A DNA stretch of 36,557 nt from a virus. Location: the IMG/VR virus record IMGVR_UViG_3300010430_000247, positions 1 to 36,557 of that record; one strand, given 5' to 3'. Shown in pieces: positions 1 to 35,018 of the stretch; the stretch's first letter is position 1, and each line of letters starts with the position of its first letter. The notes under the pieces were generated by a model. The model worked only from the letters and a program-made list of their open reading frames with translations, had not been told where the DNA came from and searched no databases. The position numbers and the translations under genes were made by a program.

Positions 1-312
1 ATCGGGTTTTATGTAAATGTCTTTAGCGTAGCCTGTAGTACTGTAAAAACTAGAACTTAGACCACCCGCAGTCCCTGTTGTTATGTCCCACGCAGTGCTA
101 AAGTCCACCTCGCGCACCTTTACTGAGCTAGGGGATACTTCTACCTCAAGAAAAAATACTCTGTCGCCCTCGGGCTTGAAAAAAAGACCAGCGGTGATCG
201 TGGCCGCAGAGAGAGAAGCAGACACAGAGTCGTATGACATACCACTTAGCTTGTAGCTACTGACACCTGCACCCGCCCTAGCCATCAAAAGTTTTTGTAA
301 TGACGTTATCAT
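1..312 (-). CDS. Second beta-propeller repeat protein, 3' part beyond the window (first 104 residues)
   Basis: An open frame begins with ATG at 312, overlapping the preceding stop as ATGA, and runs to the left edge. The peptide starts MITSLQKLLMARAGAGVSSY and then enters SYDSVSASLSAATITAGLFF, KPEGDRVFFLEVE, REVDFSTAWDITTGTAG and AKDIYIKPD. This is the same blade pattern as in the 1208-residue adhesin (SYDSVSFSVSSQ, FFKPDGTKMYMVG, LSTAWDVSTASYD), although diverged and GC-richer. Unlike that protein it has no shared N-terminal module and no glycine-rich scaffold: repeats begin by residue ~20. It is probably a stand-alone propeller tip that partners the preceding NVAIG-repeat fibre. Length and end unknown. 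Confidence 0.7.
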   Translation of the reverse strand, partial: MITSLQKLLMARAGAGVSSYKLSGMSYDSVSASLSAATITAGLFFKPEGDRVFFLEVEVSPSSVKVREVDFSTAWDITTGTAGGLSSSFYSTTGYAKDIYIKPD

Positions 313-1709
313 GCCATTGCATCCCCTGCTAAGAAACCATACCAAGTTGTTCCACCGTCTACTGTCATAAAGGTGTATACGTCCGTCTCCCCGCTTGCGG
401 GTGCATCAGGAGCCGAGCCACCAGCCCAGTCAACCGAGGCAGGCCACGTCAGCGTGTGAGTGCCACCAGCCGTAATAATAAGGCTGAACGTGCCGACCTG
501 ACCAGACGAAGGGACACCCGTGAAGGTGAAGGTCGTGTTGCCCGAGGTCGTCAGCGTGTAGGTATCTCGCGCACCTACGTCCACCGATGGGGTGGTGCCT
601 GAGAGGGCAGCAGAGGTGTTATCAATGCCACAACCGGGAATACGGAAACGAGTTACTGAGGTGTTACCAAGAGTAATCTCGTTATTGACAGAAGTGGAAG
701 AAGCGTTAGAGTTATGACCGATAACAGTGTTGTTATCACCTGTCTCGGTGTCCCCAGCATTATTCCCTATAAAGGTGTTGTTATCGCCAGTCGTTAGGGC
801 TGCACCTGTGCTTCCGCCAACACATACATTGTTAGTACCAGTAGTGATGTTTGTGCCACTTTGATCACCTATTAGGATATTACTTTTCCCAGTAGTAATG
901 TCATAACCTGCTAGGTAACCTATGGCAACATTGTCAGCGGTGGCTTCTGTAGCAACACCAAGTCCCATTGCGCTATCGCCAAGGGCAATGTTCCGAGACC
1001 CAGTTGTAATGTTTCTTCCGGCGTTTCTACCAAACAGTACATTTGCGGTGCCGCTAGTTAAATCTTCCCCAGCAGAAGCCCCAATAGCAACGTTATCGTC
1101 TCCGGTTGTGACACCATTGCCCATAGCGTTTGGACCAATAGCAACATTATCAGAAGCCGTGGCCATGTTGGCTCCGGCGGTTCTACCTATTAGTGTGTTG
1201 TCGTCACCGGACGTTAATTCATAGCCGGATTGATACCCAATGGCGATATTGTACTGACCCCCAGTCAAATTGCCTTCGCCCATAGCTTGACCGCCGATGG
1301 AGACATTGTAATTCCCGTTCCCGCTCAAAAACGACAAATGCCCAACGGCAATATTGCCTATGCCAGTTGTGGTGTTTTCTCCCGCCTTAGTTCCAAGAAA
1401 AACATTCGAACTGCCGGAGGTTACGTCCTTACCAGCGTCAATACCAACTGCCGTATTGTTGTTAGTGGCGCTGGCAGAAGCTAAGGCACCAGACCCAAGC
1501 CCGACAGTAGTGGTTCCCGCAATCGCGTCAGAAAGGTCGTCAATTGAACTTGCGCCACCCGAGGGTGTCGCAAAAGATAATCCACCAGAGCCATTTGTAG
1601 ATAATACTTGACCACTACTTCCGTCGGTTGTGGGTAGAGTGAATGTTTCACCAAACTCTTTTAGATTAGTATCTCTAGCTAAATCACTTAGATTTCTAGT
1701 ATTACTCAT
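309..1709 (-). CDS. Fibre with YadA-head-like NVAIG repeats and a head-domain C-terminus
   Basis: 466 residues. Residues ~1-60 are an N-terminal phage module (LPTTDGSSGQVLSTNGSGGL, SFATPSGG). Residues ~80-345 are at least ten repeats of 18-30 residues with the core N-x-A/V-x-x-G-x-x-A-G-x-x-x-T-x-G (NTAVGIDAGKDVTSGSSN, NVAIGASAGEDLTSGTAN, NIALGDSAMG). These are the left-handed beta-roll repeats of trimeric autotransporter YadA heads, also used in phage fibres. Residues ~370-466 (NTTFTFTGVPSSGQVGTFSL, LTWPASVDWAGGSAP, WYGFLAG) match the C-terminal domain of the 145-residue protein at 6993. A good ribosome site (AGGAGA) precedes the ATG. The gene is GC-rich compared with its upstream neighbour. 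Its stop overlaps the next start as ATGA. Confidence 0.75.
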   Translation of the reverse strand: MSNTRNLSDLARDTNLKEFGETFTLPTTDGSSGQVLSTNGSGGLSFATPSGGASSIDDLSDAIAGTTTVGLGSGALASASATNNNTAVGIDAGKDVTSGSSNVFLGTKAGENTTTGIGNIAVGHLSFLSGNGNYNVSIGGQAMGEGNLTGGQYNIAIGYQSGYELTSGDDNTLIGRTAGANMATASDNVAIGPNAMGNGVTTGDDNVAIGASAGEDLTSGTANVLFGRNAGRNITTGSRNIALGDSAMGLGVATEATADNVAIGYLAGYDITTGKSNILIGDQSGTNITTGTNNVCVGGSTGAALTTGDNNTFIGNNAGDTETGDNNTVIGHNSNASSTSVNNEITLGNTSVTRFRIPGCGIDNTSAALSGTTPSVDVGARDTYTLTTSGNTTFTFTGVPSSGQVGTFSLIITAGGTHTLTWPASVDWAGGSAPDAPASGETDVYTFMTVDGGTTWYGFLAGDAMA

Positions 1710-1741: not shown

Positions 1742-1749
1742 TATTTATA
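1742..1749 (-). promoter_or_regulatory. T4-type late promoter (TATAAATA)
   Basis: A perfect TATAAATA on the minus strand, overlapping the 3' end of the DUF4376-like gene and 33 nt upstream of the start at 1709. A second near-match (AATAAATA at 1730-1737) lies just downstream; the perfect copy has the spacing typical of the other candidates. Confidence 0.65.
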
Positions 1750-2377
1750 CTTCAGGTGCAGTGTTTGCTTCTTCAACTTCTTCAACAATGTTCCATCTAA
1801 TATCAAACTCATAAACTTCTTGTGCAGTAGTTAGAGCTTTTAGTTGAGCCTTTTTAATCCAAGATTGCGCATACTCATTTTCAATTTGCGCAAATACACT
1901 TTCTCCCATTTCAATAGCTTCTTCTGGCGTAAGTGTATAAGGTTGATTATCTGCGGCCATGAATGTTATAGTATCCGTTTCATTGCGCATTACTTTCAAT
2001 GATGCTTTTTGAACAATGTTTGTGAGATTTTGAATGTCAGGCTTACCTTGTCTCACGTCAACAGGTATGGTTTGACCAGTGCTTAGAACAACCGTTTTTT
2101 GACTATAGATAAGCTGTTCTCGTAAAGCGTTTATCTGATGTTCTTTTTCAGCCTTTAACTGATCCGCTGGCTTGTCTGATACAGCCCAACTAGCACCTGT
2201 CCAATTTAAATTTTCCCAAGCATTGACAGCAGGTTTATCTGGTGCTACTGTGTAGCCAGCATCTTCTATTTCTTGTACTGTGAAAGAAGACGGATCAGTT
2301 CTAGTTCTACCATCAGAAAGAGTTATTCTGTGTGGTAGAGGTTTTGGGTATTGTGATTTGTATGAGTATAGTGTCAT
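1745..2377 (-). CDS. DUF4376-like protein, putative fibre-assembly accessory
   Basis: 210 residues. The first ~75 residues (MTLYSYKSQYPKPLPHRITL, FTVQEIEDAGYTVAPDKP, NLNWTGASWAV) describe a small beta domain. From ~80 to 190 a helical part INALREQL, TIPVDVRQGKPDIQNLTNIV, ASLKVMRNETDTITFMAADN and TLTPEEAIEMGESVF follows the pattern of DUF4376, a domain attached to or encoded beside phage tail-fibre proteins. It could act in fibre folding or attachment; this is known only by association. It closes its cassette, and its stop lies next to the late promoter of the following one. Ribosome site GAAAGG upstream. Confidence 0.6.
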   Translation of the reverse strand: MTLYSYKSQYPKPLPHRITLSDGRTRTDPSSFTVQEIEDAGYTVAPDKPAVNAWENLNWTGASWAVSDKPADQLKAEKEHQINALREQLIYSQKTVVLSTGQTIPVDVRQGKPDIQNLTNIVQKASLKVMRNETDTITFMAADNQPYTLTPEEAIEMGESVFAQIENEYAQSWIKKAQLKALTTAQEVYEFDIRWNIVEEVEEANTAPEV

Positions 2378-2411: not shown

Positions 2412-3161
2412 TTATCTCCAAACTGCTACCCCCAAAGCGGTACCTTGTGAAGGTGCTGTGCCAGTTGTTGAAACTATTGTGTGAGTTTGCGTTGATGTTG
2501 TAACCAATGAAGCGCCTGTCGCACCAGTCAACCCCCCTCCAATTTGTTCATCATATCTTTCTGTGACTCCAGACCAAGTATGCGCATACACATTACCTGA
2601 TGTATGCGCAGCTATAATAGCTGAACCTGAACTGATTGAAGTTGTATTAACTGTTCTAGTAGTAACAAAATTAACATCAGTATCTGATCCAGTAAATGTT
2701 GGGGTAGTTGAAATGTAACCCTGTATCGTATAAACTCCAATCCCGCATCTGAATGGTCCGCTTGGGTAGTTGACAGTAACTGAAGTGGTGGATGAACTTA
2801 ATTCAGCATACCACAAAGATACATGTGCGACTCCTGATGATGAACCGGTTGAAGTAGCAGATACTGCTTGTGTGGCCGTTACTCCTCCTATCGTTACACT
2901 AGATGCAGGTACGCTTGTGCCCACTGTAGTTTCGCTGTGAACGGCAATCACTGCCAATGACGGACCAATACTAGCGGTAGTAAAATTATATGTCGTCAAT
3001 GAACTATTATTGCTATATGTGTTTACGAATGCTGATGCTGTTGGTCCACTAGGCCATATTACATCACGCTTCGCTCTAAGCTGTTCTCGCAAACCCCAAA
3101 CGCCACTAGCTTCTGTGATAGTGGGTGAATTTGGTATCCCTATGATTCCGCCGTTTTTCAT
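2412..3161 (-). CDS. Phage adhesin-like protein with GVWGLREQ leader
   Basis: 249 residues. Residues 1-45 contain GGIIGIPNSPTITEASGVWG and LREQLRAKRDVIWP, a leader I recognise at the start of many short tail proteins of marine phages, probably an anchoring motif. The rest is Ser/Thr/Gly-rich beta structure (SLAVIAVHSETTVG, SVTIGGVTATQAVS, GVAHVSLWYAELSSSTTSVT, GIGVYTIQGY, GSAIIAAHTSGNVYAHTWSG) resembling the fold pattern of the 221-residue protein at 6328. It overlaps the preceding gene by ATGA. Likely another small receptor-binding or decoration protein; the ligand is unknown. Confidence 0.6.
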   Translation of the reverse strand: MKNGGIIGIPNSPTITEASGVWGLREQLRAKRDVIWPSGPTASAFVNTYSNNSSLTTYNFTTASIGPSLAVIAVHSETTVGTSVPASSVTIGGVTATQAVSATSTGSSSGVAHVSLWYAELSSSTTSVTVNYPSGPFRCGIGVYTIQGYISTTPTFTGSDTDVNFVTTRTVNTTSISSGSAIIAAHTSGNVYAHTWSGVTERYDEQIGGGLTGATGASLVTTSTQTHTIVSTTGTAPSQGTALGVAVWR

Positions 3162-5314
3162 AGTCCGTAGCTACCTTTTAACGCATTATAGTTTTGCGTT
3201 ATTTCTCGTTGCGTCAACGCTTTTTCATATACAAGCATAAAACCTATTCGCCCATTCCATTCTCTTGCCACATCGTGATTCCACGTCCCAATACGGGCAT
3301 TAGTCTGCGCTGAAGGTGTCACATAAGTATCAGTTCCAGAGTTGTCTAATACGCCATTTTTATACCATGACCAGTTGCCGCTAGACTGATCGTGTGTAAC
3401 TGCCCAAATTTCCCAAACTCCAGTACTTAAAATACTAGTTGAAGTCATGTTAGTACCATCAGTAGTAAGAGGTCCAGGATTTTCTCTAAATATTAATTTA
3501 TTTGCTGGTGTACCATTTGAATCTGGAAAGATGCACCACCCATTAAGAGCATTTCCGCCATCACTTTTATCTATTATTCGCTGAAAGTTATCTCCAGGCC
3601 CATCCCAATATGTGGCAAACATAATTGTCAATCCGCCGTCAGCAGGACTAGATAGTTGAAGTGGGTTGGAAGTTGTAATGGTACCAAGTTCTATGTAATC
3701 ATCTAAGCCATCAAATTCAAAATAAGTAGAATTGTATACTGCACCACCTGTCACTACACCGTCATTATTTTGACCACTAACATCCCACCAACGCTCTTCT
3801 CGTTTTATTGCTGTTGTGCCTGTTTTTACAGGACGACTGTAGTTACTCATTGGTCCTCGCTGAAGTTGCGGGTTCCAAAAAGTGTTTGAACCCGTGGCAG
3901 TGGGGTCGCCCACAAGACCAGCGCCTGCTGACCCTACTACTGGATAAATATTACAAACCATTCTATCGTAACCAGCACCTTCAGTTTGAACCTCAAACAT
4001 AACACGCCACCAGTCACCCTCAGAAACAACTTGCATATTTGTTGAATTAACTGCAACAAAATCTCCATTATCAGGGTTTAAGTAAGAGTCATAGACAGTT
4101 CCATTAGTATAACTAGGGGTATCTACAAAATAAATTTGTATAAGTGCCCACGGGCCGCCAGTGTTCTTTTTGATGTGGTATATTGCTGTCATTGTTTGAA
4201 CAGTTTCATAAACAGCATCATTGTTATCATCTACTATATATACTGCGGCAAAGTTTGCAGCATCATTATCTGATAAAATAAACGCATCATTTTGTCCATC
4301 AACGCCTGTAGTTGCTGTAGATGAAACGCTATTTACAGGTATCCAATCTGGATATGATGAAGGAGTAATATCTGTTGAATAAGGAATAAAGTTTTCTGAA
4401 ACACCATAACTCTTTTCATTTACTGCGTCCATCCAAAGCACTAAGCTATTAGTGTATATATCTGGTAAAAAGTTTTTATAACTTGCGTCTAAATTCCAAA
4501 GACCTGTATTTTTTTTGTTACCGATGACAATTATACCAGAATTGTAAATGTCGCTTGCATCGGTTGCTGTTAATGCGACTTCATTCCAGTAACATACATC
4601 TTGTAATCGCCCATCATAACTTGCGTAAGTAATGTTAGCGTTCAAATGATTTCGTGCTGCGCCAGAACCGATTCTAACATCGCCTACGTGCTCTAATAAA
4701 TCTGTTCCGACTGAGCTTGTCGCTTGCCCAGCAAGACTTCCATTTAAGTAAATCTTAATATTATTTGAACCAAGTGTTAAATCAAATGTGACTAAGCAAT
4801 GATAGGTGGTTCCTGTGGAAACAGAAGCAGTAGCGTGACCTCCTGATATATTACTTTCGCCTAAATTAGCATAAATCAGACCATTATCTAAATAAATTGA
4901 CATCCAGTTTGTACCACCACCTTCTTCCCAGATGCACGGATAAGTACCAGAACCAGTAGTGTCAGCATTAAACCAAAAAGATATAGAACGCTTTGTCCAA
5001 ACATACCCAGTTCCACCATTTATAAGTGGATCGTTAGCGGTTGTAAGATATTCAGACCCTGACATATCTGCGCTTTGATATCCTGGGAAAGTTTGTATTA
5101 GTCCCGTGGTGTACGAAAACGTTCCAGTTGGTGTAGTACTATGAGATCCCTCTTCATTAGTTGTTGCATTCAGCGTCCATCTAAAATCAGGAGCACCTCC
5201 TGAAACTGAATTAATAGCGGTGTTGTAATTAATATCAGGAAAATATTCATAGAAACTAGTGTCACTATAATCCGCAGTTCTGCCTATAAATCCACCATTA
5301 TCTAATAAGGTCAT
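3158..5314 (-). CDS. Two-LamG adhesin with a carbohydrate-binding-like domain inserted in the second LamG
   Basis: 718 residues. Residues ~80-265 are a first LamG-type domain (SISFWFNADTTGSG, YLDNGLIYANLGES, YHCLVTFDLT, IKIYLNGSLAGQ, GRLQDVCYWNEVALT). A second LamG begins at ~290 (LVLWMDAVNEKSYG) but is interrupted at ~305-507. It resumes with ERWWDVSGQNNDGVVTGGAV, FEFDGLDDYIELG and GRIGFMLVYEKALTQREITQ. The interruption (FIPYSTDI, SYPDWIPVNS, WALIQIYFVD, GDWWRVMFEVQ, FWNPQLQRGPMSNYSRP) follows the layout of carbohydrate-binding-like domains of phage head-spike/tail proteins that end in WGAQLE...SYIPT. The product is probably a glycan-binding tip. Its stop overlaps the next start (ATGA). No enzymatic motif seen. 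Confidence 0.75.
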   Translation of the reverse strand: MTLLDNGGFIGRTADYSDTSFYEYFPDINYNTAINSVSGGAPDFRWTLNATTNEEGSHSTTPTGTFSYTTGLIQTFPGYQSADMSGSEYLTTANDPLINGGTGYVWTKRSISFWFNADTTGSGTYPCIWEEGGGTNWMSIYLDNGLIYANLGESNISGGHATASVSTGTTYHCLVTFDLTLGSNNIKIYLNGSLAGQATSSVGTDLLEHVGDVRIGSGAARNHLNANITYASYDGRLQDVCYWNEVALTATDASDIYNSGIIVIGNKKNTGLWNLDASYKNFLPDIYTNSLVLWMDAVNEKSYGVSENFIPYSTDITPSSYPDWIPVNSVSSTATTGVDGQNDAFILSDNDAANFAAVYIVDDNNDAVYETVQTMTAIYHIKKNTGGPWALIQIYFVDTPSYTNGTVYDSYLNPDNGDFVAVNSTNMQVVSEGDWWRVMFEVQTEGAGYDRMVCNIYPVVGSAGAGLVGDPTATGSNTFWNPQLQRGPMSNYSRPVKTGTTAIKREERWWDVSGQNNDGVVTGGAVYNSTYFEFDGLDDYIELGTITTSNPLQLSSPADGGLTIMFATYWDGPGDNFQRIIDKSDGGNALNGWCIFPDSNGTPANKLIFRENPGPLTTDGTNMTSTSILSTGVWEIWAVTHDQSSGNWSWYKNGVLDNSGTDTYVTPSAQTNARIGTWNHDVAREWNGRIGFMLVYEKALTQREITQNYNALKGSYGL

Positions 5315-18286: not shown

Positions 18287-18970
18287 TCAGTTAGGCCACT
18301 CTAAAACAGGCAATTCAGCTTCAATGTCAGAATACCCAGATGGTACAGGTCTTGTTCCAGCTTCAACTTTCGCCATAATTTCATACAATTTATTCCAAGT
18401 CGCGTCTCTTGCATCAACGCAATACTGCCCTTCTTCTGCAAACTTCGTGACTGTTGATGTTGCGTAAGTACATGCGGAAAGCATTGTATCATAACCTCTT
18501 GTTTGAGCAAACTCATTAAGTCTTACTTGAACTTCTTTTGCAATTTCATCTTTAAGTAATAAAAGACCATTCTGTTCAGTGATAGTCCACTCGTGGTTTA
18601 CATAATCGTATTCGTGAAATTTTGAAGGCGGTTCTTGTAGTTTAGCTTGATCGTAAAACCATTCGTATAAAGATTTAGTGTTACCTTCAATGTTTTTGAA
18701 AACTTCGGGGAATGAGTCTGGTTTAAATGATTGTACGACTGTCTTAGAACTTACCATGTTTACAATAGAGTAAATTCCGCTATAAGGCTCATAAGACAAT
18801 TGCATTGTTTTTTCTGGCATGTTTAGAGTTGATGTAAATGCGTCATTGAACTCTTTTCTTGTCACAACTGACGAAAATAAAAAATCACCTCCAAGTTTGT
18901 CATAAACAAAACAGGAAGCGAAGCTAGGTTCTATACTAAAGTTTATAAATCCAGGTGTAGATAGTGCCAT
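18287..18970 (-). CDS. Putative tail-fibre assembly/accessory protein
   Basis: 227 residues, mixed alpha/beta and without the low-complexity composition of the fibres. The C-terminal ~90 residues carry a pattern I recognise from proteins beside phage tail-fibre genes: EVQVRLNEFAQTRGYD, SACTYATSTVTKFAEEGQY, DARDATWNKLYEIM, GTRPVPSGYSD and a final ELPVLEWP. The molecular function of this domain is not established to my knowledge; its position suggests an assembly chaperone or a small tail component. It closes the adhesin cassette, as similar accessory proteins do at 5702 and 1745. Start ATG with AAGGGG upstream. The next cassette begins after a 48-nt gap that holds a late promoter. Confidence 0.6.
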   Translation of the reverse strand: MALSTPGFINFSIEPSFASCFVYDKLGGDFLFSSVVTRKEFNDAFTSTLNMPEKTMQLSYEPYSGIYSIVNMVSSKTVVQSFKPDSFPEVFKNIEGNTKSLYEWFYDQAKLQEPPSKFHEYDYVNHEWTITEQNGLLLLKDEIAKEVQVRLNEFAQTRGYDTMLSACTYATSTVTKFAEEGQYCVDARDATWNKLYEIMAKVEAGTRPVPSGYSDIEAELPVLEWPN

Positions 18971-18983
18971 TACGAGTTACCCC

Positions 18984-20459
18984 TTATAATTTTTTGATGA
19001 AGTGGAGAGCATGATACTTAGGTTTAATTCTTGCGCTAAACGTATTTATTGTGTGAGAGTGCGTTCCAGTGAAATTTACGTGTCGTCCGCTCTGAGTTGG
19101 ATCACCGATGTTTCCACCTTCTCCTGTGTAGTGTCTATGTGAACCAGTAGAACCTGTTGTTAAATCTGCGAATGCGACTTCATTAGTACCAGAAGAAACA
19201 CCGTGACTATCAGTGTTACTAATAGCAAGATATCGTTCTCTCATGTCAGGGGTTCCGTTTGTTCCATCGCATATAGCCCATCCTGCAGGTGGAGTTTCGC
19301 TTCCCCATAACATAATAGATCCTGAAATTGCACCTACAGTTTCACTTTGATCTGACCAAAGACTAAAGGTTCTTTTTTTAGTATTATCGTTACCTGCATT
19401 ACTGTGGGTAATAGTGTGAGAATGTGACCCATCAGAAGAGTCTGAAGAATAATAAGATTCGGTCCCAGAGGTTATAGGTGCTCCGTTTGGACCGTGACTG
19501 TGACTACCTGCACTGTTTGTTGTTAAAGTCATACCAATCGTATTATTTCCTACAACTACAGAAGATTCTGAAGAAGAGTTTAGCAACATATGCGTTTCGC
19601 CTACATCAACAGAGCTTAAACCGCTTAAATTTGAATCAGAAAGAATGTATATATTACTTGGTAATGGTGATGCTGTAACGCACTTGGCTAATTTATAAGA
19701 TTTTCTCTTTAAATCAGCATCTATAGAAGATGGTGTTACTGTATGCGTGTGAGCACCTGCTGTAAATGTACCAGTCAATAATGTGGAAGTTCCAGACGTA
19801 TATGTGTATGTAGAACCAGTATGACTACCAGCGGTGTTGGTTGTAATGGGCCCGTCTATTATTTCAGTATCGCCATCTGAGACAGTGTTTAGTGTTACAG
19901 TATTACTCGCACCTATAATAAACTTATCTATTCCTAAATCGTAATCAACCCAACTACCATCTTCTGGGAGAGAACCTGTGTATGGAGCAATCGCTCCCAC
20001 TGGTGCAAATGGCGTGTCTATGGATTGTATAGAAATATCACGACCATTTATTGTAAAACCAGCAGTACCAGCCGTATTAGCAGTAAACGTGATTACGTCT
20101 TCGTCTCTCGTTACAGTGCCAGTGTTAGAAGTAAGAACATACTCTCTTTCAATGTCATAATCTGTAATTTGAAATAGCGCCGGGAAGTTGACATTAACAG
20201 ATGCTTTATCATATTTAATACTATCTTTAAGATTTTCCGTATCTTCCTCAAATACAGTCCACAGATTACTTGAATAAATTTCAAAGTCGTTTATGTCTGT
20301 GTTATATCTAAACATACCGCCACTAGGAGAAACTGGCCTTTGTGCTGTATTTCCACTAGGCAGAACGATGAATCCGTTGTCTTCAAATTCAGCATTATTC
20401 AAGTTCTCTAAATCTTTAGTGTCAGATATAACAACAGTGTTTGCTATTTTAATTGACAT
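18984..20459 (-). CDS. Tail-collar adhesin with HxH motifs (gp37/gp12-like tip)
   Basis: 491 residues. Residues 1-70 are the module shared with the two preceding genes (MSIKIANTVVISD, LPSGNTAQRP, GMFRYNTDINDFE). Residues ~380-400 are a phage tail-collar domain (GSIMLWGSETPPAGWAICDG) followed by TPDMRERYL. Five HxH motifs occur: HTH ~237, HSH ~320, HSH ~346, HRH ~443 and HSH ~469. In the T4 long-tail-fibre tip gp37, HxH motifs from three chains coordinate iron along a needle next to a collar domain; gp12 uses a related arrangement with zinc. This protein therefore probably forms a metal-stabilised trimeric tip. Its start overlaps the previous stop (TAATG). The fold assignment is well supported; the metal is inferred. 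Confidence 0.8.
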   Translation of the reverse strand: MSIKIANTVVISDTKDLENLNNAEFEDNGFIVLPSGNTAQRPVSPSGGMFRYNTDINDFEIYSSNLWTVFEEDTENLKDSIKYDKASVNVNFPALFQITDYDIEREYVLTSNTGTVTRDEDVITFTANTAGTAGFTINGRDISIQSIDTPFAPVGAIAPYTGSLPEDGSWVDYDLGIDKFIIGASNTVTLNTVSDGDTEIIDGPITTNTAGSHTGSTYTYTSGTSTLLTGTFTAGAHTHTVTPSSIDADLKRKSYKLAKCVTASPLPSNIYILSDSNLSGLSSVDVGETHMLLNSSSESSVVVGNNTIGMTLTTNSAGSHSHGPNGAPITSGTESYYSSDSSDGSHSHTITHSNAGNDNTKKRTFSLWSDQSETVGAISGSIMLWGSETPPAGWAICDGTNGTPDMRERYLAISNTDSHGVSSGTNEVAFADLTTGSTGSHRHYTGEGGNIGDPTQSGRHVNFTGTHSHTINTFSARIKPKYHALHFIKKL

Positions 20460-23400
20460 TATACATCTCCAACATTAGTTGATGGGTACGATCTACCGTT
20501 ACCCCAAATGATTCTAACAGCACCTTGAGCACCATTACCAGCAGTTCTTCCTGTCTGAAGAGAAGCGGCCGCTCCACCGCCCCCATATAGGCCACCGTCA
20601 CCTCTAGTGGGATCAACTAGACCACTAAATCCTGATTGCGCTCCCGTTGATCCGCTTAAACCATAGGTGAAAGGACCCTTTCCACCTAGTTCATAATAGA
20701 ATACTTCTGGCTCAAAAAGATCAATCTGCAATAAAGGTTCAACAGTTGTTGAATCCGAGTTTTTAGATATAGTAAACAATCTTGACAAATCCGAGTTGAA
20801 CTCAAATGGTGTGTGAGAACTACCAGCTATCAATCCCATGTCATAAGCATTGAAATAATTGGCTGTTGTAATGTCCCATGGAGTTGATAAAATATATTCT
20901 TTTATTTCACCATTATTATAATTAAACGTGAAAAGTTTTGATCCATCTAATTTGAAGTTCAATCTATTTGAGAATGTTGTGCCACCATTAAAAACAATTG
21001 AGTCGTATGACGCAGTTGATATATCCCATGGCGTTGATAAGCTATATTGAAATATTTGCTCTGAATTGTTTATTGCATATATTTTAGTACCATCCGTTTT
21101 AAAGAAAAAGTCGTACACAAATGTAGACTCACCTCCTACTATGTCAACACTAACACCAGAATAAGTTGCTGTAGAAAGATCCCAAGGAGTTGACACAGTA
21201 TGTTCTTGTATCAATCCTCTGGTGTCTAATGCGTATAGAATTGTACCATCTGATTTAAATGTGATTGCTTCTGGAGAACCGTTAGTAGTTTGTATACTAT
21301 AACTTACAGAATCATAAGAAGAAGTTTTTGCGTCCCAAGCAGTATTAGCAGTGTATTGATAAATCGTTCCTGGTGTTAATCCGTCTAAAACATACATCTT
21401 AGTGCCATCTGATTTAAATGTTAAATCTTGGATAGATGAAAATCCTGTGCTATATACATATGATAGATTGTAAATTGATGTTGTTGACACGTCCCAAGCA
21501 GTACTTAATGAATATTGATAAACTTTGTCGTTTGTTGCCCCAACCATGTACATTTTAGAGCCGTCGGGTTTAAAGAAGATGCTTCTTGGATTATCATCTT
21601 GACTACTAACAGAAAATCTAACAGAGTCATAAGATGCTGTTGATACATCCCAAGGTGTGCTTAAAGTGTATTGATAAACTCTGTAGTTCGATTCTCCAAG
21701 TATGTACATTTTAGAGCCGTCAGATTTGAAGAAGACATCCTGTGGAACACCATCTTGAGCAACAACACTAAAGGTCTGAGCGGAAGAATAAGAAGATAAA
21801 TCCCAAGCAGTGCTTAAAGTGTTTTGATAAACTATGTCACCCGCTGACCCAACACCATATATCACAGTACCATCTGGTTTGAAAAAGATACCGCGCGGCC
21901 TGGAGTCTGGAGTCGAGAAAGAAACAGAATCATAAGACGCTGTGGATATATTCCATGCAGTGCTTAAAGTGTATTGATAAACTCTGTTGGTCGATCCTCC
22001 AAGGACGTACATCTTAGTACCATCTGGTTTAAAATGAACATCGTATGGTTGAGTAGCTTGGTCATTAACAAGAAAACTAACGCCGTCATATGATGCTGTA
22101 GATACATCCCAAGCAGTGCTTAAAGAAAGTTGGTAAACTCTGTTGTAAATGTCTCCAATCATATACATCTTAGTGCCATCAGGTTTGAAAGAGATGCTCG
22201 TGGGAGAAGTATCCAAAAATTGTACACTATAAGAACCTAACGCAATATCGTTATAGTTATTCTCTGATTTGTTCCCAAAAACTGGGCCATAAATATTAGC
22301 ACCACCGCCACCACCACCAACATCTGTAGTTCCTGTTGTACTAGCGCCACCACCGCCACCACCGGAGTTTGGTGTTGCGTCTGAACCTGCCGCAGAGGTG
22401 CCATTATAAGTACCGCCACTTCCACCAATGCCACCATAGCCAGCGGCACCACCACCTCCACCTGCGTTATCATAAGTGCTTGTCCCAACTCCACCAGTGC
22501 CACCTAAACCAAAGACTGTGTTTGCGGAAGTTAATTCAATTAAACTGTATTGATAAACTGTATCGGCCGCTGATCCAAGTATGAACATCTTAGTGCCATC
22601 GTCTTTGAAGAAGATGCCGAATGGAGAACTATCTTGACTACTAACATAAAAGCTAACAGAATCATAAGATGCTGTAGATACGTCCCAAGGCGTACTTAAT
22701 GAATATTGATAAACTGTATCGGTCGCTGATCCAAGTATGAACATCTTAGTACCATCGTCTTTGAAGAAGATGCCGTATGGAGAACCGTCTTGACTACTAA
22801 CAGAAAAGCTAACAGAGTCATAAGATGCTGTTGATAAATCCCATGCAGTGCTTAAAGTGTATTGATAAACTCTGTCGGTTGATGACCCAACCATGTACAT
22901 CTTAGTGCCATCAGGTTTGAAAAAGATATCGTATGGAGCGCTATCTTGACTACTAACATAAAAGCTAACAGAATCATAAGACGCTGTTGATAAATCCCAT
23001 GCAGTGCTTAAAGTGTATTGATAAACTCTGTCGGTTGATGACCCAACCATGTACATTTTAGTGCCGTCGGGTTTGAAAAAGATGCAGTATGGAGAACCAT
23101 CTTGACTACTAACAGAAAAGCTAACAGAGTCATAAGATGCTGTAGATACGTCCCAAGGCGTACTTAATGAATATTGATGAACACTGTCGTTTGATACTCC
23201 AACCATGTACATCTTAGTGCCATCTGGTTTGAAAAAGATGCTTCTTGGACTACCATCTTGAAAACCAACATAAAAGCTAATGCCTTCATACAATAAATCA
23301 TTAGTCTGGTTTGTGACAGTAGTTCCTATATTGCCACCAATACCACCAAAAGCACCTAAAATAATTTCATTAGGTCTTGATATATACGAATCTTCACCCT

Positions 23401-24085
23401 TTTGACCAGATGTACCGTCTGTGCTACCTAATCCACCTTTCCCGACAAAAACAGACAACACCTCGTTTGGCGTAACTGGAATGTCATTAGCATAGACTAG
23501 ATTACCACCATTACCCCCACATGCGCCATTCGTAGTGTCGTCAGCGCCGCCACCACCGCCTCCAATAACAACAGCAGAAATTTTATTTACACCATAAGGT
23601 ACTGTAAACTCATGCTCACCTACTGTTGTGAACTCAGCTTGACCTGGAGGATTTCCAGCTAAGACAGTACCGCTATACGTTCTATTGTTTACGGTGAATC
23701 CACCTGGCCCTGTATTTTCTGGTACATATAAAATGAGATCATCTGTTATAGAGATTGTTCCATTTGTAGTAGAAACGTTATAAACTCTTCTGGAATCATA
23801 GTTTGAAATTAAGAAAAAGTTTGGCACGTTTGCATATAGTTGAGATCCTCCCGACAATCTTATATCAAATGAACCAAGAATGTCCCAATTATCATTACTT
23901 CTAGTTTCTAAAAACCCACTGGCGTTATTGTATCTAATCGTACCATTTAATGGCGACTCTGGTCTTGTAGAAGCATCCCCAGAAGGCAGCTTTAAATAAC
24001 TCGTGCCAGTAAATGTAGCAGACTCTAGATTAACTAAGTTGTTGTCATTGTCAATAACAGTATTTCCAGATATCTTTATAGACAT
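20459..24085 (-). CDS. Glycine-rich adhesin carrying two inserted beta-propeller repeat arrays
   Basis: 1208 residues. Residues 1-65 are the shared module (MSIKISGNTVIDNDN, KLPSGDASTRP, GTIRYNN). Residues ~155-255 are the first part of the glycine-rich domain (FTVPYGVNKISAVVIGGGG). At ~262-517 the domain is broken by five repeats of ~52 residues of the form IFFKPDGTKMYMVG ... VYQYTLSTAWDLSTASYD. The glycine-rich sequence resumes at ~518-612 (AGGGGGAAGYGGIGGSGG). A second, more diverged array of about ten repeats runs ~613-1130, and the domain closes with GAVRIIWG. Repeats with F..DG.KMY and VYQY are typical propeller blades. Alignment by eye to the preceding 425-residue protein shows the same scaffold without the arrays. 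The protein is probably a host-binding tail-tip adhesin. Linked by TAATG on both sides. Confidence 0.8.
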   Translation of the reverse strand: MSIKISGNTVIDNDNNLVNLESATFTGTSYLKLPSGDASTRPESPLNGTIRYNNASGFLETRSNDNWDILGSFDIRLSGGSQLYANVPNFFLISNYDSRRVYNVSTTNGTISITDDLILYVPENTGPGGFTVNNRTYSGTVLAGNPPGQAEFTTVGEHEFTVPYGVNKISAVVIGGGGGGADDTTNGACGGNGGNLVYANDIPVTPNEVLSVFVGKGGLGSTDGTSGQKGEDSYISRPNEIILGAFGGIGGNIGTTVTNQTNDLLYEGISFYVGFQDGSPRSIFFKPDGTKMYMVGVSNDSVHQYSLSTPWDVSTASYDSVSFSVSSQDGSPYCIFFKPDGTKMYMVGSSTDRVYQYTLSTAWDLSTASYDSVSFYVSSQDSAPYDIFFKPDGTKMYMVGSSTDRVYQYTLSTAWDLSTASYDSVSFSVSSQDGSPYGIFFKDDGTKMFILGSATDTVYQYSLSTPWDVSTASYDSVSFYVSSQDSSPFGIFFKDDGTKMFILGSAADTVYQYSLIELTSANTVFGLGGTGGVGTSTYDNAGGGGGAAGYGGIGGSGGTYNGTSAAGSDATPNSGGGGGGASTTGTTDVGGGGGGANIYGPVFGNKSENNYNDIALGSYSVQFLDTSPTSISFKPDGTKMYMIGDIYNRVYQLSLSTAWDVSTASYDGVSFLVNDQATQPYDVHFKPDGTKMYVLGGSTNRVYQYTLSTAWNISTASYDSVSFSTPDSRPRGIFFKPDGTVIYGVGSAGDIVYQNTLSTAWDLSSYSSAQTFSVVAQDGVPQDVFFKSDGSKMYILGESNYRVYQYTLSTPWDVSTASYDSVRFSVSSQDDNPRSIFFKPDGSKMYMVGATNDKVYQYSLSTAWDVSTTSIYNLSYVYSTGFSSIQDLTFKSDGTKMYVLDGLTPGTIYQYTANTAWDAKTSSYDSVSYSIQTTNGSPEAITFKSDGTILYALDTRGLIQEHTVSTPWDLSTATYSGVSVDIVGGESTFVYDFFFKTDGTKIYAINNSEQIFQYSLSTPWDISTASYDSIVFNGGTTFSNRLNFKLDGSKLFTFNYNNGEIKEYILSTPWDITTANYFNAYDMGLIAGSSHTPFEFNSDLSRLFTISKNSDSTTVEPLLQIDLFEPEVFYYELGGKGPFTYGLSGSTGAQSGFSGLVDPTRGDGGLYGGGGAAASLQTGRTAGNGAQGAVRIIWGNGRSYPSTNVGDV
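20690..22240 (-). repeat. Second propeller-repeat array, about ten diverged units
   Basis: About ten units of 50-54 codons (equivalent points near 22137, 21981, 21831, 21678 and 21522 continue the series with spacings of 156, 150, 153 and 156). They keep DGTKMY-, VYQYTLSTAWD- and STASYD-like cores but diverge towards the C-terminus, where the last two units retain only traces (LDGSKLFTF, SDLSRLFTI). The array is therefore older, or under less homogenisation, than the five-unit array upstream in the gene. Confidence 0.8.
22540..23300 (-). repeat. Tandem 156-bp repeats encoding five beta-propeller blades
   Basis: Five units with an exact 156-nt period (equivalent points at 22557, 22713, 22869, 23025 and 23181), each encoding 52 residues. 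Neighbouring units are nearly identical over long stretches at the DNA level, including silent positions, which points to recent duplication or gene conversion. Variation is concentrated just before and just after the IFFKPDGTKM core, for example GSPYCI, SAPYDI, GSPYGI, SSPFGI. Confidence 0.9.
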
Positions 24086-25362
24086 TATAAGTCTCCAGTA
24101 TTTGTTGATGGGAATGCCCTATCGGATCCCCAAATAATTCTAACAGCGCCAGACCCACCATCACCATGCTCACCGAATGTGTTGTCGGCACCCCCGCCAC
24201 CACCACCAAAGTCACCGCCTTTATTTACAAATGAAGTAGAACCTTGAGACTGTCCACCTCCACGCCCACCGTCTTGACCACCTGAGCCACCGAAGCCATT
24301 TGATCCGTTAGCAGTAGATCCGTTCCCCCCAGCGCCAGAAGCACCTTCACCGAATATACCAACACCACCACCGTTACCAGCAGCATCAGACGATCCTCCG
24401 CCACCGCCGCCACCGCCTGCACCACCTGAACCAGAAGTGCCAGATTGAGCGTATGAACCACCATTACCACCGCTGCCAGAGTAACCACCTGCACCACCAC
24501 CGCCTCCAGCATAAGTGCCTTCAGTGGCGCCAGTGCCACCACCACCGCCGCCGTCACCTATAAATCCACCACCAAGACCACCAGAGTCATCTTGATCTCC
24601 ACGAAATCCACCAAATCCGCATACAGTCGCTATGTCAATGAAATAACTGCTTCCTCCAGCAGATGCGTTATCTAAAGAGTTTGTACTTCTAACACCACCA
24701 GAACCAACAACAACTGTGTAGCTTTGTCCTGGTATAACAGTAATGTCATTTCTCCAACCTAAGCCGCCACCGCCTCCGCCACAGCCGCCTGATGATGTAG
24801 CAGAACCGCCGCCGCCACCACCTACTGCAACTACTGATACAGAAGTAACGCTATCTGGGGCAGTCCAAAGATATGTTCCAGGTGTTGTGAAGGCTTCTTG
24901 TTTAATAGGATTTATGAAAAAAGGAATAACCTCATCATTAATTGTTAAAGAAACTAAGCCTTGTTCGTCTGGTGTGAATGTTATAACATTTTCAGTTCTT
25001 GTTGCGGTACCACCACTTGTCGTTATCGTATAATTTGTGAAACTATCGTAATCAGTTATTTCTAATGTTATAGATTCACCCAATTCTATAAATGGAAGTT
25101 CGCCAGGAGTAGTTATTGCGTCTGATTTTATTGTAAACTCTGATGGTGCGCCTATAACGCTCCATGTACCACTCTTAAATAACTCAAGTTCTTGTTGATC
25201 AGTGTTGAATCTGATCATACCATCTTGAGTGAAGTTAGGTCTTTGCGCAGTTGTACCTGATGGTAACTTCACATAGCCAGTTCCAGTGAACGTAGCAGAC
25301 TTTGCATTGGTGACATTTCTACTGTCATCAATGATAGTTGTATTTTTTATTTTAATAGCCAT
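24085..25362 (-). CDS. Glycine-rich adhesin (gp38-like scaffold, uninterrupted copy)
   Basis: 425 residues. Residues 1-70 are the module shared with the next two genes: MAIKIKNTTIID, KLPSGTTAQRP, GMIRFNTDQQELE, then a Trp. Residues ~70-155 are a beta-rich linker (TDYDSFTNYTI, GLVSLTIND). From ~165 (FTTPGTYLWTAPDSVTSVSV) to the end lies a polyglycine domain with many GGGGGG runs, closing with GAVRIIWG. Glycine-rich sandwiches of this kind are known in T2/T6/S16-type gp38 tail-tip adhesins, where exposed loops bind the host receptor; resemblance here is by composition and architecture, not proven homology. The stop overlaps the next start as TAATG. A strong AGGAGG precedes the ATG. This is the closest paralogue of the neighbouring propeller adhesin and shows that scaffold without inserts. 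Confidence 0.75.
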   Translation of the reverse strand: MAIKIKNTTIIDDSRNVTNAKSATFTGTGYVKLPSGTTAQRPNFTQDGMIRFNTDQQELELFKSGTWSVIGAPSEFTIKSDAITTPGELPFIELGESITLEITDYDSFTNYTITTSGGTATRTENVITFTPDEQGLVSLTINDEVIPFFINPIKQEAFTTPGTYLWTAPDSVTSVSVVAVGGGGGGSATSSGGCGGGGGGLGWRNDITVIPGQSYTVVVGSGGVRSTNSLDNASAGGSSYFIDIATVCGFGGFRGDQDDSGGLGGGFIGDGGGGGGTGATEGTYAGGGGGAGGYSGSGGNGGSYAQSGTSGSGGAGGGGGGGGSSDAAGNGGGVGIFGEGASGAGGNGSTANGSNGFGGSGGQDGGRGGGQSQGSTSFVNKGGDFGGGGGGADNTFGEHGDGGSGAVRIIWGSDRAFPSTNTGDL

Positions 25363-25400: not shown

Positions 25401-26630
25401 TTATTTATTTAGAGAATCAACTTTACTTTGCAGTTCCTTTACGGCCTGTAACAATACTGCTATAAGACCGTTATAATTAACAGTCTTAACTTCATCGTCA
25501 GAAACTATTTGTGGTAGTACTTTTTGAAGTTGTTGTGCTGATACGCCAAGAGAAGACTTCCCAGTATCATTCCAAACGAATGAAATGCCGTCAATATCAT
25601 TAATTAAATCTAAAGCGTTTTCAATAGGAGTAATGCTATTTTTAAATGTTTCGTCTGATAATGAGTTAAACTCTGTCGCATTCAACTGACCAGTGGATGG
25701 CTTGAAGTATAGTTTAGTTGAAGAAACTCTTAGATTTTCTGTTTCACCAGACGCGGCTGTGACGAATGTTGGATAATAATTAGAACTGGTTGTTGTGTCG
25801 TCAATAACATCAGGTTTAGTGATTTCACCCCAACCTGTTCCATTGTATCCCTCAAACTCATTTGTTGACGTGTTAAAACGAATCATGCCGGCAACACCAG
25901 AAGGTCTATCAGCACTTGGGCCACTAGGAATTGTTATGTGACCGTTTGAAGTGAATGTCACATCACCATCTAATCTTGGAATGTTATCAAGTTCTGTTTG
26001 TAACCCGTCAATGTTAGCGATGACGTGATTATGACTATCATCTGCCACTGAAGCTGTTAGTGTGGCATTACCAAGATTGGTTAGCGTAACAGACCCTGAT
26101 AAGTCGCCAGCAAGAGTGATTGTTGGATCTGGTTTGTTTGTTACGTTTGTCCAATTAAGATAGTACGAACTATTTTGACCATCAAAAAGTACAGAGTTAT
26201 TAGATGTACCATGAAATGTGCCAACAAATGTATTACCAGATACAGTTTGACTAAAGTTTACGCTACCCGTGAAAACTGTATTAGCAGAACCTACAGTCGT
26301 TTTGAGATTGCTAATTGTCAACTCTGACCCAGCATCATCAATCACAACGTTGCTTGATAATGTTACAATTTCAGAGAATTGAGCGTTTGATGTAATACTC
26401 AAATCACCTGGAGTTCCAGCACTACCGCCTCTTAACTCACCTAAAGCGAATACTGTGTTTGCTCCAACCGAACCGTCAATGGTTAAATCACCAACATTTG
26501 TGTCGCCAATACCAAAAGTGGCGACAACCGTACCCATGTCGTCTATCAATTCATTTGTTCTAGTAAGCCAAGTTTGAAATGTATCGCTGGCACTATCTAC
26601 TTCTGCGCCTACGTATGAACTAATCGCCAT
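25401..26630 (-). CDS. Tail fibre with C-terminal S74 intramolecular chaperone domain
   Basis: 409 residues. The N-terminal ~40 residues (DTFQTWLTRTNELIDDMGTV) look like an attachment helix of a type seen in marine phage fibres. Residues ~45-230 are beta-repeat shaft (VTLSSNVVIDD, GTFHGTSNNSV). Around residues 235-265 there is a copy of the module shared with the next three adhesins (IPSGPSADRP, GMIRFNT, GWGEI). Residues ~325-409 form a peptidase S74/intramolecular chaperone domain: SDETFKNSI carries the Ser and Lys of the self-cleavage motif, followed by GVSAQQLQ and YNGLIAVLLQAVKEL. In this family the domain trimerises the fibre and is then released by autocleavage before the serine. The ribosome site AGGATAG precedes the ATG. 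Good confidence for the domain; the receptor is unknown. Confidence 0.85.
   Translation of the reverse strand: MAISSYVGAEVDSASDTFQTWLTRTNELIDDMGTVVATFGIGDTNVGDLTIDGSVGANTVFALGELRGGSAGTPGDLSITSNAQFSEIVTLSSNVVIDDAGSELTISNLKTTVGSANTVFTGSVNFSQTVSGNTFVGTFHGTSNNSVLFDGQNSSYYLNWTNVTNKPDPTITLAGDLSGSVTLTNLGNATLTASVADDSHNHVIANIDGLQTELDNIPRLDGDVTFTSNGHITIPSGPSADRPSGVAGMIRFNTSTNEFEGYNGTGWGEITKPDVIDDTTTSSNYYPTFVTAASGETENLRVSSTKLYFKPSTGQLNATEFNSLSDETFKNSITPIENALDLINDIDGISFVWNDTGKSSLGVSAQQLQKVLPQIVSDDEVKTVNYNGLIAVLLQAVKELQSKVDSLNK
25402..25409 (-). promoter_or_regulatory. Putative late promoter (AATAAATA) for the adhesin cassette
   Basis: The minus strand reads AATAAATA, overlapping the stop region of the S74 fibre gene and 40 nt upstream of the glycine-rich adhesin start at 25362. 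It is one base off the perfect TATAAATA. The leader also contains a strong AGGAGG ribosome site inside CCTAGGAGG, a leader sequence resembling the one before the 1709 gene (CCTAGGAG). Confidence 0.4.
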
Positions 26631-33281: not shown

Positions 33282-35018
33282 TTAAAATCCTATTACTATT
33301 TTGATGCGCTCTATGCTTTCTGGCGATCTTACTATTGGGTTTACGTTCTGCACATACAGAATTGTCTCTGATCCTAATATCATATCAGGCTGACTTATGC
33401 TATTTATAAGCGCTCTAGTACCTGTTGTCTGCCCAATTATAGTTTTTCCAGTACTAAAAGAACCTTTAGTGTTTATCAAATTGACTGTACCATTTTCTGA
33501 TGAATATACGTAACCTTCAGCATTTGTTCCCGATTCAATCACTCTTTCGTCGTTATCAAATGCACTTTGAAAGGTGTAAGTAACACCTAAATTTAAAGTT
33601 TGATCAAACACATCATTATTGTTTTCTAAATTAGCCACATCAAATGACGTGTTAGCAATAACAACTGTTTCAAGCGGATCAAAAATACCAGAAGTCTCTT
33701 CTAGTTCTATTTTAGTGTTGACTGAATCAATAGATAAAACTTTACCACTTGCACCAGAGTTTGCTTGAAGTACAGAATCACCAACATTGATACCAGACAC
33801 ATTATTCAAATCTATTGTAATGTTATTCAATAGAGGATTTTTTAATACACCAATTACCCTGAAATCGTTATTGGCACTTGGCGCTTCATCACCTGCAAAA
33901 TTAATTGAGAACCCTACATTCTTAGCAAACAACTCTTTCTGAGGATCTGATCCATGTCCATTCTTAGGTAGAACGATTGCTCTTGCTGTGGCTTTTGTAT
34001 ATCCAGTTTCAACATACGTTTCATTTGTTTCTATAGATACGTTAGCGTACAAGTACCCACTACCAGATTCTATAATTTCAACTCTATCTATAAACGTAGA
34101 CTCTTCATTAACAATTGCTCTTGCTCTAAATCCAGTTCCGTTACCATTAACAACTACGTTAGGTGAAATGATAAATGTGTCTCCAGCCACAGGTGTTGTT
34201 GTGAATGCTTCGTCAACAAGAACAAATTTGAAGTTGCCCTCAATACCATAGTCAATGATTTTTCTTAGTTGCCCTGCACCTGTACCAGAATCAATATAGA
34301 CAGCATTGTTGACATAATAATCTGCTGTTGGGTTGAGAAGTTCATCACCTTGAACGTAAAACTTTCTCGTGTTACCGCCAATATTTGTCTGTACAATAAT
34401 TCCAGATGCTGTTTGGTTATAACCAAATCCACTCTCGTTTATTTCAACATAGTCAATTGTACCAGCGACGGCATTGTTAACCACGTCTGAGTCAACTAGA
34501 AATGGAAAGTATTCAGTAGTAGCAAATTTTGCGTAAGTTGCGGTCGAAATTTTGTACATAAACTTCCACACATAATTGTCAGATGTTTGATAAAATTCAT
34601 CTGATGCTGAAGTTTCTGAAATTAATGGTTGCACTGTTGACGGAGAACTGTTATAATTGTTTATACACTTGAAAACACCATAGTCTTCACCCTCTTGAGA
34701 AACTACATAGAAGTCTCTAGTATCTAAACTACCATCGCTATCGTCATATGCGTAGTAAACAGTATTGGCTACCCATGGTTTATTTTTGATCATTAAAGAT
34801 ACATCACTATCAGTGACATATTTTCCAAATATCATGTGATTAGTTAGAATGTATTCCAACTGTTGATCACTGTTAGATGGATCTGGTGGCGACAATCCAT
34901 CTCCACCATCATATTCTAAAGTTTTTCCAGCGAACACGTAATAGTCATTCGCATTCACATCTTCTACCAACTTGTTGGCTAACATATTTCTGAAATTGGT
35001 TGTAACGATCTGAGTCAA
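33282..35018 (-). CDS. 8: Baseplate wedge subunit, T4 gp8 family
   Basis: This 578-residue protein matches the T4 gp8 pattern in its first third: IVTTNFR near the N-terminus (T4 VTSKFR), a glycine/proline-rich stretch, then DYGVFKCINN, SPSTVQP and SDNYVWKFMYKI followed by TTEYFPF. These correspond to the T4 segments around VYRCLD and DGYVWEYLFEI. gp8 is a dimeric wedge component of the hexagonal baseplate. The protein is longer than T4 gp8 (334 residues); the extra C-terminal half consists of short beta repeats (GSGYLYANVSI, SGASGKVLSID). The start is TTG at 35018, supported by AAGAGG six bases upstream and by the position of the conserved IVTTNFR; the first ATG would remove it. A candidate late promoter precedes it and the DUF4815 gene follows after 9 nt. 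Confidence 0.85.
   Translation of the reverse strand: MTQIVTTNFRNMLANKLVEDVNANDYYVFAGKTLEYDGGDGLSPPDPSNSDQQLEYILTNHMIFGKYVTDSDVSLMIKNKPWVANTVYYAYDDSDGSLDTRDFYVVSQEGEDYGVFKCINNYNSSPSTVQPLISETSASDEFYQTSDNYVWKFMYKISTATYAKFATTEYFPFLVDSDVVNNAVAGTIDYVEINESGFGYNQTASGIIVQTNIGGNTRKFYVQGDELLNPTADYYVNNAVYIDSGTGAGQLRKIIDYGIEGNFKFVLVDEAFTTTPVAGDTFIISPNVVVNGNGTGFRARAIVNEESTFIDRVEIIESGSGYLYANVSIETNETYVETGYTKATARAIVLPKNGHGSDPQKELFAKNVGFSINFAGDEAPSANNDFRVIGVLKNPLLNNITIDLNNVSGINVGDSVLQANSGASGKVLSIDSVNTKIELEETSGIFDPLETVVIANTSFDVANLENNNDVFDQTLNLGVTYTFQSAFDNDERVIESGTNAEGYVYSSENGTVNLINTKGSFSTGKTIIGQTTGTRALINSISQPDMILGSETILYVQNVNPIVRSPESIERIKIVIGF
33401..33408 (-). promoter_or_regulatory. Possible internal late promoter (perfect TATAAATA) inside the gp8 gene
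   Basis: A perfect TATAAATA on the minus strand lies within codons for ALIN near the gp8 C-terminus, about 130 nt before the start of the giant DUF4815 gene at 33272. The 8-mer is the full T4 late consensus, but it is farther from the next start than the other candidates (21-40 nt), so it may be chance in AT-rich coding sequence. Confidence 0.25.

Follow-up and report, generated by a model that had tools for sequence, protein, structure and literature searches.

The 36557-base virus contig analysed here (the window) encodes a protein of 1208 residues, A, in which the glycine-rich domain of the neighbouring 425-residue protein, B, reappears opened at two points and filled with propeller-type repeats. 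This arrangement raises the question of what kind of protein A is, how such inserts could be accommodated and what they would contribute. Two known systems are relevant to it. In T2/S16-type gp38 adhesins, specificity resides in variable loops borne by a lattice of glycine-rich motifs (PMC6851490, PMC12892980). In Pam3 gp24, a tail fibre protein of a cyanophage, a TNF-like domain bears six glycine-rich loops and twelve glycine motifs, and the tips have been proposed as receptor binders (PMC9608196).

A gene row for tail-fibre and baseplate proteins

The genes for B, A and a third protein, C, are consecutive on the minus strand, with a one-base overlap at each gene boundary (Table 1). By blastp, the three products share an N-terminal module of ∼140 residues (A versus C, 33% identity over residues 1-138, E 1e-21), and this module is the probable point of attachment to the fibre or baseplate. 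C matches a PHROG tail fibre family (E 7e-10), and its C-terminal part gave a weak Pfam Collar match under the cut-off (E 1e-4). A Peptidase_S74 tail protein precedes the row and, further upstream, we found a 2142-residue product that matches a PHROG without assigned function, and two others with baseplate wedge family matches. The closest relative of the product of 33282-35018 is the baseplate wedge subunit of a phiM12-type Sinorhizobium phage (35% identity), and many cyanophages are among its matches. The best explanation makes A and B paralogues that serve as receptor-binding proteins (adhesins), encoded among the tail-fibre/baseplate genes of a marine T4-like phage; the host may be a marine bacterium, perhaps an alphaproteobacterium.

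Elsewhere in the window, a 210-residue DUF4376 protein (1745-2377, minus strand, E 1e-13), encoded on the same strand as A and not adjacent to it, lies beside a 466-residue tail-fibre-like protein and is possibly a fibre-assembly chaperone. For the 227-residue product of 18287-18970 (minus strand), no Pfam match and no relative in IMG/VR were found; judged by eye, its C-terminal half resembles a fibre-assembly chaperone.

Table 1. Coordinates of the B-A-C gene row and of its parts within the window
Feature	Coordinates	Strand	Description
Peptidase_S74 tail protein	25401-26630		Upstream of the B-A-C row
B	24085-25362	-	ORF, 425 aa
B aa 1-150	24913..25362	-	N-terminal module common to A, B and C (blastp)
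B aa 151-425	24088..24912	-	Uninterrupted scaffold; profile 7-273 in one stretch, 375 bits
A	20459-24085	-	ORF, 1208 aa
A aa 1-140	23666..24085	-	N-terminal module common to A, B and C
A aa 141-254	23324..23665	-	Scaffold piece 1: contains the TNF-like strands and the initial glycine motifs; profile 6-113; Gly_rich_2; pLDDT ∼95
A aa 264-515	22541..23296	-	Predicted propeller 1: 5 repeats/blades; 20 strands; pLDDT ∼95
Tandem array in propeller 1	22548-23280		Period 156
A aa 526-600	22286..22510	-	Scaffold piece 2: 48% identity to B272-338; profile 122-195; pLDDT 82-93 in parts
A aa 611-865	21491..22255	-	Predicted propeller 2: five blades; 20 strands
A aa 870-1132	20690..21478	-	Predicted propeller 3: directly after propeller 2; five blades, the last degenerate; 19 strands and a two-residue strand
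A aa 1134-1208	20462..20686	-	Scaffold piece 3: ends GAVRIIWGNGRSYPSTNVGDV; profile 208-274; last 40 residues mostly pLDDT 82-96
C	18984-20459	-	491 aa; third in the row; N-terminal module common with A and B

The glycine-rich pieces of A form one predicted domain

Comparison of A with B by blastp returned three colinear blocks (A1-251/B1-265, 36% identity, E 4e-45; A528-600/B272-338, E 1e-17; A1134-1208/B332-425, 42% identity, E 8e-13); neither low-complexity filtering nor composition correction was applied, which makes the E-values for the Gly-rich blocks too favourable. A scaffold profile derived from 58 further glycine-rich domains of phages, with A and B excluded and composition correction again off, matched A in three colinear stretches (i-E 7e-28, 2e-19 and 2e-20 from piece 1 to piece 3). 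These colinear matches take in non-glycine residues, for example in GAVRIIWG...YPSTN. Both proteins also exceeded the Pfam cut-off for Gly_rich_2 (PF21722, 24.3 bits), A with 53.9 bits over two stretches and B with 42.7 bits. A profile search of the PDB with the scaffold gave nothing credible, and a search with B alone matched no named phage.

A joint alignment of A with propeller-rich and glycine-rich relatives threw the scaffold out of register, and two separate alignments and AlphaFold models were therefore made. Model 1 (AlphaFold2) spanned A 141-1208, and its alignment covered the scaffold alone. Its mean confidence was low (53.6) because the propellers had no alignment rows; pLDDT was ∼95 over residues 141-250, 82-93 over 521-560 and 82-96 over 1161-1200. 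The best solved match of this model was Pam3 gp24 (7ypx, Z 17.6, rmsd 2.9, 191/250 residues, model range 6..1057), followed by Pam3 7yfw, the Bxb1 tail tip (Z 13.2) and ALK/LTK (Z 8.6-10.8), and the rest of the entries among the matches listed had a Z of 3 or less. Since piece 1 alone comprises only ∼110 residues, a match of 191 residues needs the later pieces. This supports the view that the three pieces make up one continuous predicted domain, in which TNF-like strands run on into a glycine-motif lattice as in Pam3 gp24; the alignment was made of uninterrupted relatives, so the model partly reflects their fold. The S16 gp38 structure 6F45 was absent among the matches listed, an absence that does not exclude a match.

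The inserts are predicted five-bladed propellers

The two inserts consist of repeats of ∼52 residues, five in the first (anchors at aa 285-493) and ten in the second (anchors at aa 633-1096), the last of which is degenerate. Model 2, made for A 256-1133 with 30 rows of repeat proteins and with the scaffold ends left out, had a mean pLDDT of 81, with values mostly between 85 and 97 in the repeats and a low-confidence linker between propellers 2 and 3. In this model, each block of five repeats comprises one strand, four sets of four and then three strands, that is, 20 strands. The prediction supports the presence of three complete five-bladed propellers, in each of which the first strand would close the ring. 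Among solved structures, the propeller model best matched Pizza6 and brain tumour NHL, neither of which is five-bladed, and, as far as titles tell, no five-bladed propeller was seen among the matches listed. As the propellers are confident only in model 2, from which the scaffold ends are absent, their placement relative to the scaffold lies outside the prediction.

The unit of five recurs in relatives. In their complete ORFs, 164 of the 215 clusters with at least four repeats were exact multiples of five (121 of 5, 24 of 10, 17 of 15 and 2 of 20); the other 51 had 6, 11 or 12 repeats (44 clusters) or 4 (7 clusters), and none had 7, 8 or 9. In gp51 of the Lentibacter phage ICBM2, which is 64% identical to propeller 1, six repeat matches amount to five blades, the two outermost being partial matches that together make up one blade. 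Within A, the unit cores of units 1-5 are 81% identical to each other at the DNA level; compared with them, the cores of units 6-10 are 74% identical and those of units 11-15 44%, the last figure being a lower bound as the cores were compared ungapped; the step in identity falls at a multiple of five. At the protein level, propellers 1 and 2 are 66% identical, propeller 3 is 40-45% identical to both, and propeller 1 shares 71% identity with a stand-alone protein of another contig (L067). On these figures, propellers 1 and 2 are related copies that come from a larger pool or are shared with one. The start of another protein with propeller-type repeats, which runs off the contig end, is encoded at 1-288 (minus strand) and has 37% identity to A 311-392.

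The first-pass annotation had proposed that the 1208- and 425-residue proteins share an N-terminal module and a glycine-rich domain, and that the longer scaffold is opened twice for 5 and about 10 repeats; the colinear blastp blocks, the profile made without A or B, and the positions of the repeat anchors bear this out. Its further proposals, that the Gly-rich pieces form one continuous domain and that the inserts are whole propeller domains, agree with the superposition of the predicted model of A on Pam3 gp24 and with the five-bladed units of ∼20 strands in model 2.

Position of the inserts in the scaffold

Across 168 domains, the profile shows an alternation of conserved glycine motifs and length-variable segments. 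The first break of A falls at profile positions 113-122, adjoining the variable segment 105-112, and the second at 195-208, across the variable segment 201-208; the reading frame is kept through all four scaffold/insert junctions. Strands and motifs counted from both ends gave six distal segments (41-48, 81-88, 105-118, 153-168, 201-208 and 241-248 of the profile), and strand parity places the inserts of A probably at distal loops 3 and 5, on the receptor-facing side.

Proposed function of A and alternative explanations

It is likely that A is an adhesin in which two distal loops of a Pam3 gp24-type domain have been opened for one and two five-bladed propellers, and that the propellers are most likely the parts that contact the receptor. 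In the mechanism we propose, the glycine motifs would extend back and forth from a small beta-sandwich, with the tip formed by the variable turns that link them, and two of these turns in A (loops 3 and 5) would have been opened in frame to carry one and two propellers, respectively. Each modelled propeller has a lone outer strand first and the three strands of its last blade at the end, as in velcro closure; such a closure puts the chain ends side by side, so that a loop could carry a propeller without disturbing the scaffold. The propellers would then supply receptor contact, probably by glycan binding, with a higher valency or a different specificity, and B would bind with ordinary short loops.

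Other explanations give the propellers another role. They could be spacers or structural bulk, lengthening or orienting the adhesin without receptor contact, as the linear arrays of 10, 15 and 20 repeats in relatives and the propeller repeats of L240, a protein with collagen-like stretches, might suggest. We regard this as rather unlikely, since both inserts occupy variable segments of a known receptor-binding fold and the stand-alone five-repeat protein of ICBM2 sits between two tail assembly chaperone genes. It is also unlikely that the propellers are enzymes carried on the adhesin (lactonases or glycan-cleaving enzymes) and not binders. A does score above the Pfam cut-offs for Lactonase (PF10282, 45.7 versus 21.7 bits) and SGL (45.3 versus 26.3 bits), and one weak PDB sequence match was a putative 6-phosphogluconolactonase (E 0.0026). 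However, the Lactonase and SGL families are six- or seven-bladed, unlike the units of five in A; the NCBIfam 6-phosphogluconolactonase equivalog NF008258 gave 30.5 bits against a cut-off of 370; and, the repeats being near-identical in places, no blade-specific active site is evident.

The integrity of A could be doubted as well. As it comes from a single contig and repeats can mislead assemblers, A might be an assembly artefact that fuses propeller and adhesin genes, but the frame kept at the four junctions, the colinear pieces and a third-position GC that is alike across the parts (0.24-0.33) make this very improbable. Scarcely credible is the explanation that the Gly-rich segments are unrelated linkers between propellers: glycine-rich likeness can arise by composition, and the scaffold profile scores 31 bits on S16 gp38 with composition correction off, yet the matches in A are colinear with non-glycine residues among them, and the confidently modelled pieces match Pam3 gp24 as one domain.

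Comparison with known adhesins and propeller proteins

Pam3 gp24 (7YPX, 7YFW) is like A in that the scaffold superposes and in that its loop and motif count fits the alternation seen here. The tips of Pam3 gp24 are all short, whereas A carries predicted propellers in two probable loops and has an apparently different N-terminal module; Pam3 gp24 also has an N-terminal alpha-helical trimerisation/docking domain, and its neighbour gp25 is a chaperone. The same fold is found by structure comparison in the TNF-like/glycine-rich region of ALK/LTK, which are animal receptor kinases with another role. A glycine lattice with variable loops is common to gp38 (6F45, PF05268) and, by prediction, to A and B; in gp38 the lattice has ten motifs and is accompanied by a beta-helix domain. 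Neither A nor B matched the Pfam GP38 families (PF05268/PF21721) at E up to 1, while S16 gp38 itself scored 246 bits, and an hhalign comparison of the scaffold profile with S16 gp38 gave a probability of 0.4%. The link to gp38 made in the first-pass annotation holds as an analogy and fails as a family assignment, the family matched being Gly_rich_2.

A repeat of ∼52 residues in fives, like that of A, occurs in ICBM2 gp51 and in the Roseobacter phage proteins CRP-9 gp42 and CRP-13 gp43, which stand alone without a glycine-rich scaffold. One IMG/VR protein of 951 residues (L051/L052) combines propeller repeats (5+5) with a complete glycine-rich domain, in tandem and not nested as in A. In three others from IMG/VR (L120, L126 and L113) the same scaffold is opened, but the inserts are not propellers. 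The earlier proposal that specificity loops had been replaced is consistent with inserts at variable inter-motif segments; the replacement is not unique in kind, as other phage proteins hold other domains within this scaffold.

The architecture of A is best read as a variant of a known adhesin class in which the nested propellers are new. The known variation of glycine-rich adhesins is in short loops, and A suggests that one loop can hold a folded insert of 250 to 500 residues with the scaffold intact, and that phages may change their adhesion target by plugging whole domains into adhesin loops. A and its uninterrupted neighbouring paralogue B lend themselves to a comparison of binding with and without inserts. 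The architecture also points to a probable use of the many five-repeat propeller proteins of marine phages that carry no annotation beyond hypothetical.

Occurrence of inserts in the scaffold

A was found in one contig only. Among 432 loci, obtained from targeted scans among the matches listed and not as a census, no other ORF had propeller repeats inside the scaffold. Scans with the N-terminal 312 residues of A, with C and with the 227-residue neighbour did not find a second phage with the nested arrangement, the loci from one of these three scans lying outside the architecture check, and one scan found no cellular genome contig encoding a relative of A. In the literature searched, we found no description of nested propellers in glycine-rich phage adhesins. 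The claim that the architecture is not known to have been described stands within these loci and this literature.

The 178 paired scaffold domains (A and B included, identical ORFs removed) had a median length of 271 aa, and four exceeded 420 aa: A (1062), L120 (813), L126 (446) and L113 (429). L120 has a Laminin_G_3 domain inside the scaffold; a different insert, common to L126 and L113, lies at profile ∼217-224, probably a near-side turn. As these three proteins hold different domains inside the scaffold, domain insertion is rare but recurrent. The many uninterrupted relatives indicate that insertion is the derived state, and A would have originated by recombination. Tentatively, the TNF-like/glycine-rich fold may be a general phage display socket for mobile folded domains (propellers, LamG-like domains and others), inserted repeatedly at variable segments; if true, specificity could change in a modular way at the level of domains, beyond short-loop variation.

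A Laminin_G_3 domain, the kind found inside the L120 scaffold, also lies at the C-terminus of a 718-residue virion protein of the window (3158-5314, minus strand). Three similar proteins (L136:704-1930, L147:2424-3641 and L158:3693-4901) have an insert of ∼66 residues near profile position 100, with a weak Pfam E1_FCCH match in L136. Weak 'glycine' matches (20-49 bits) in the repeat proteins L211, L229, L237, L240 and L244 were set aside; that of L240 is collagen-like GxQG. L240 itself (L240:2446-9579, 2378 aa) combines collagen-like GxQG stretches with a single block of five propeller repeats. Finally, L159:3362-11024 and L161:2231-9884 encode neighbouring proteins of ∼1000 and 1565 residues with at least three tandem glycine-rich domains, and the longer ones open with ∼450 residues resembling another repeat domain.
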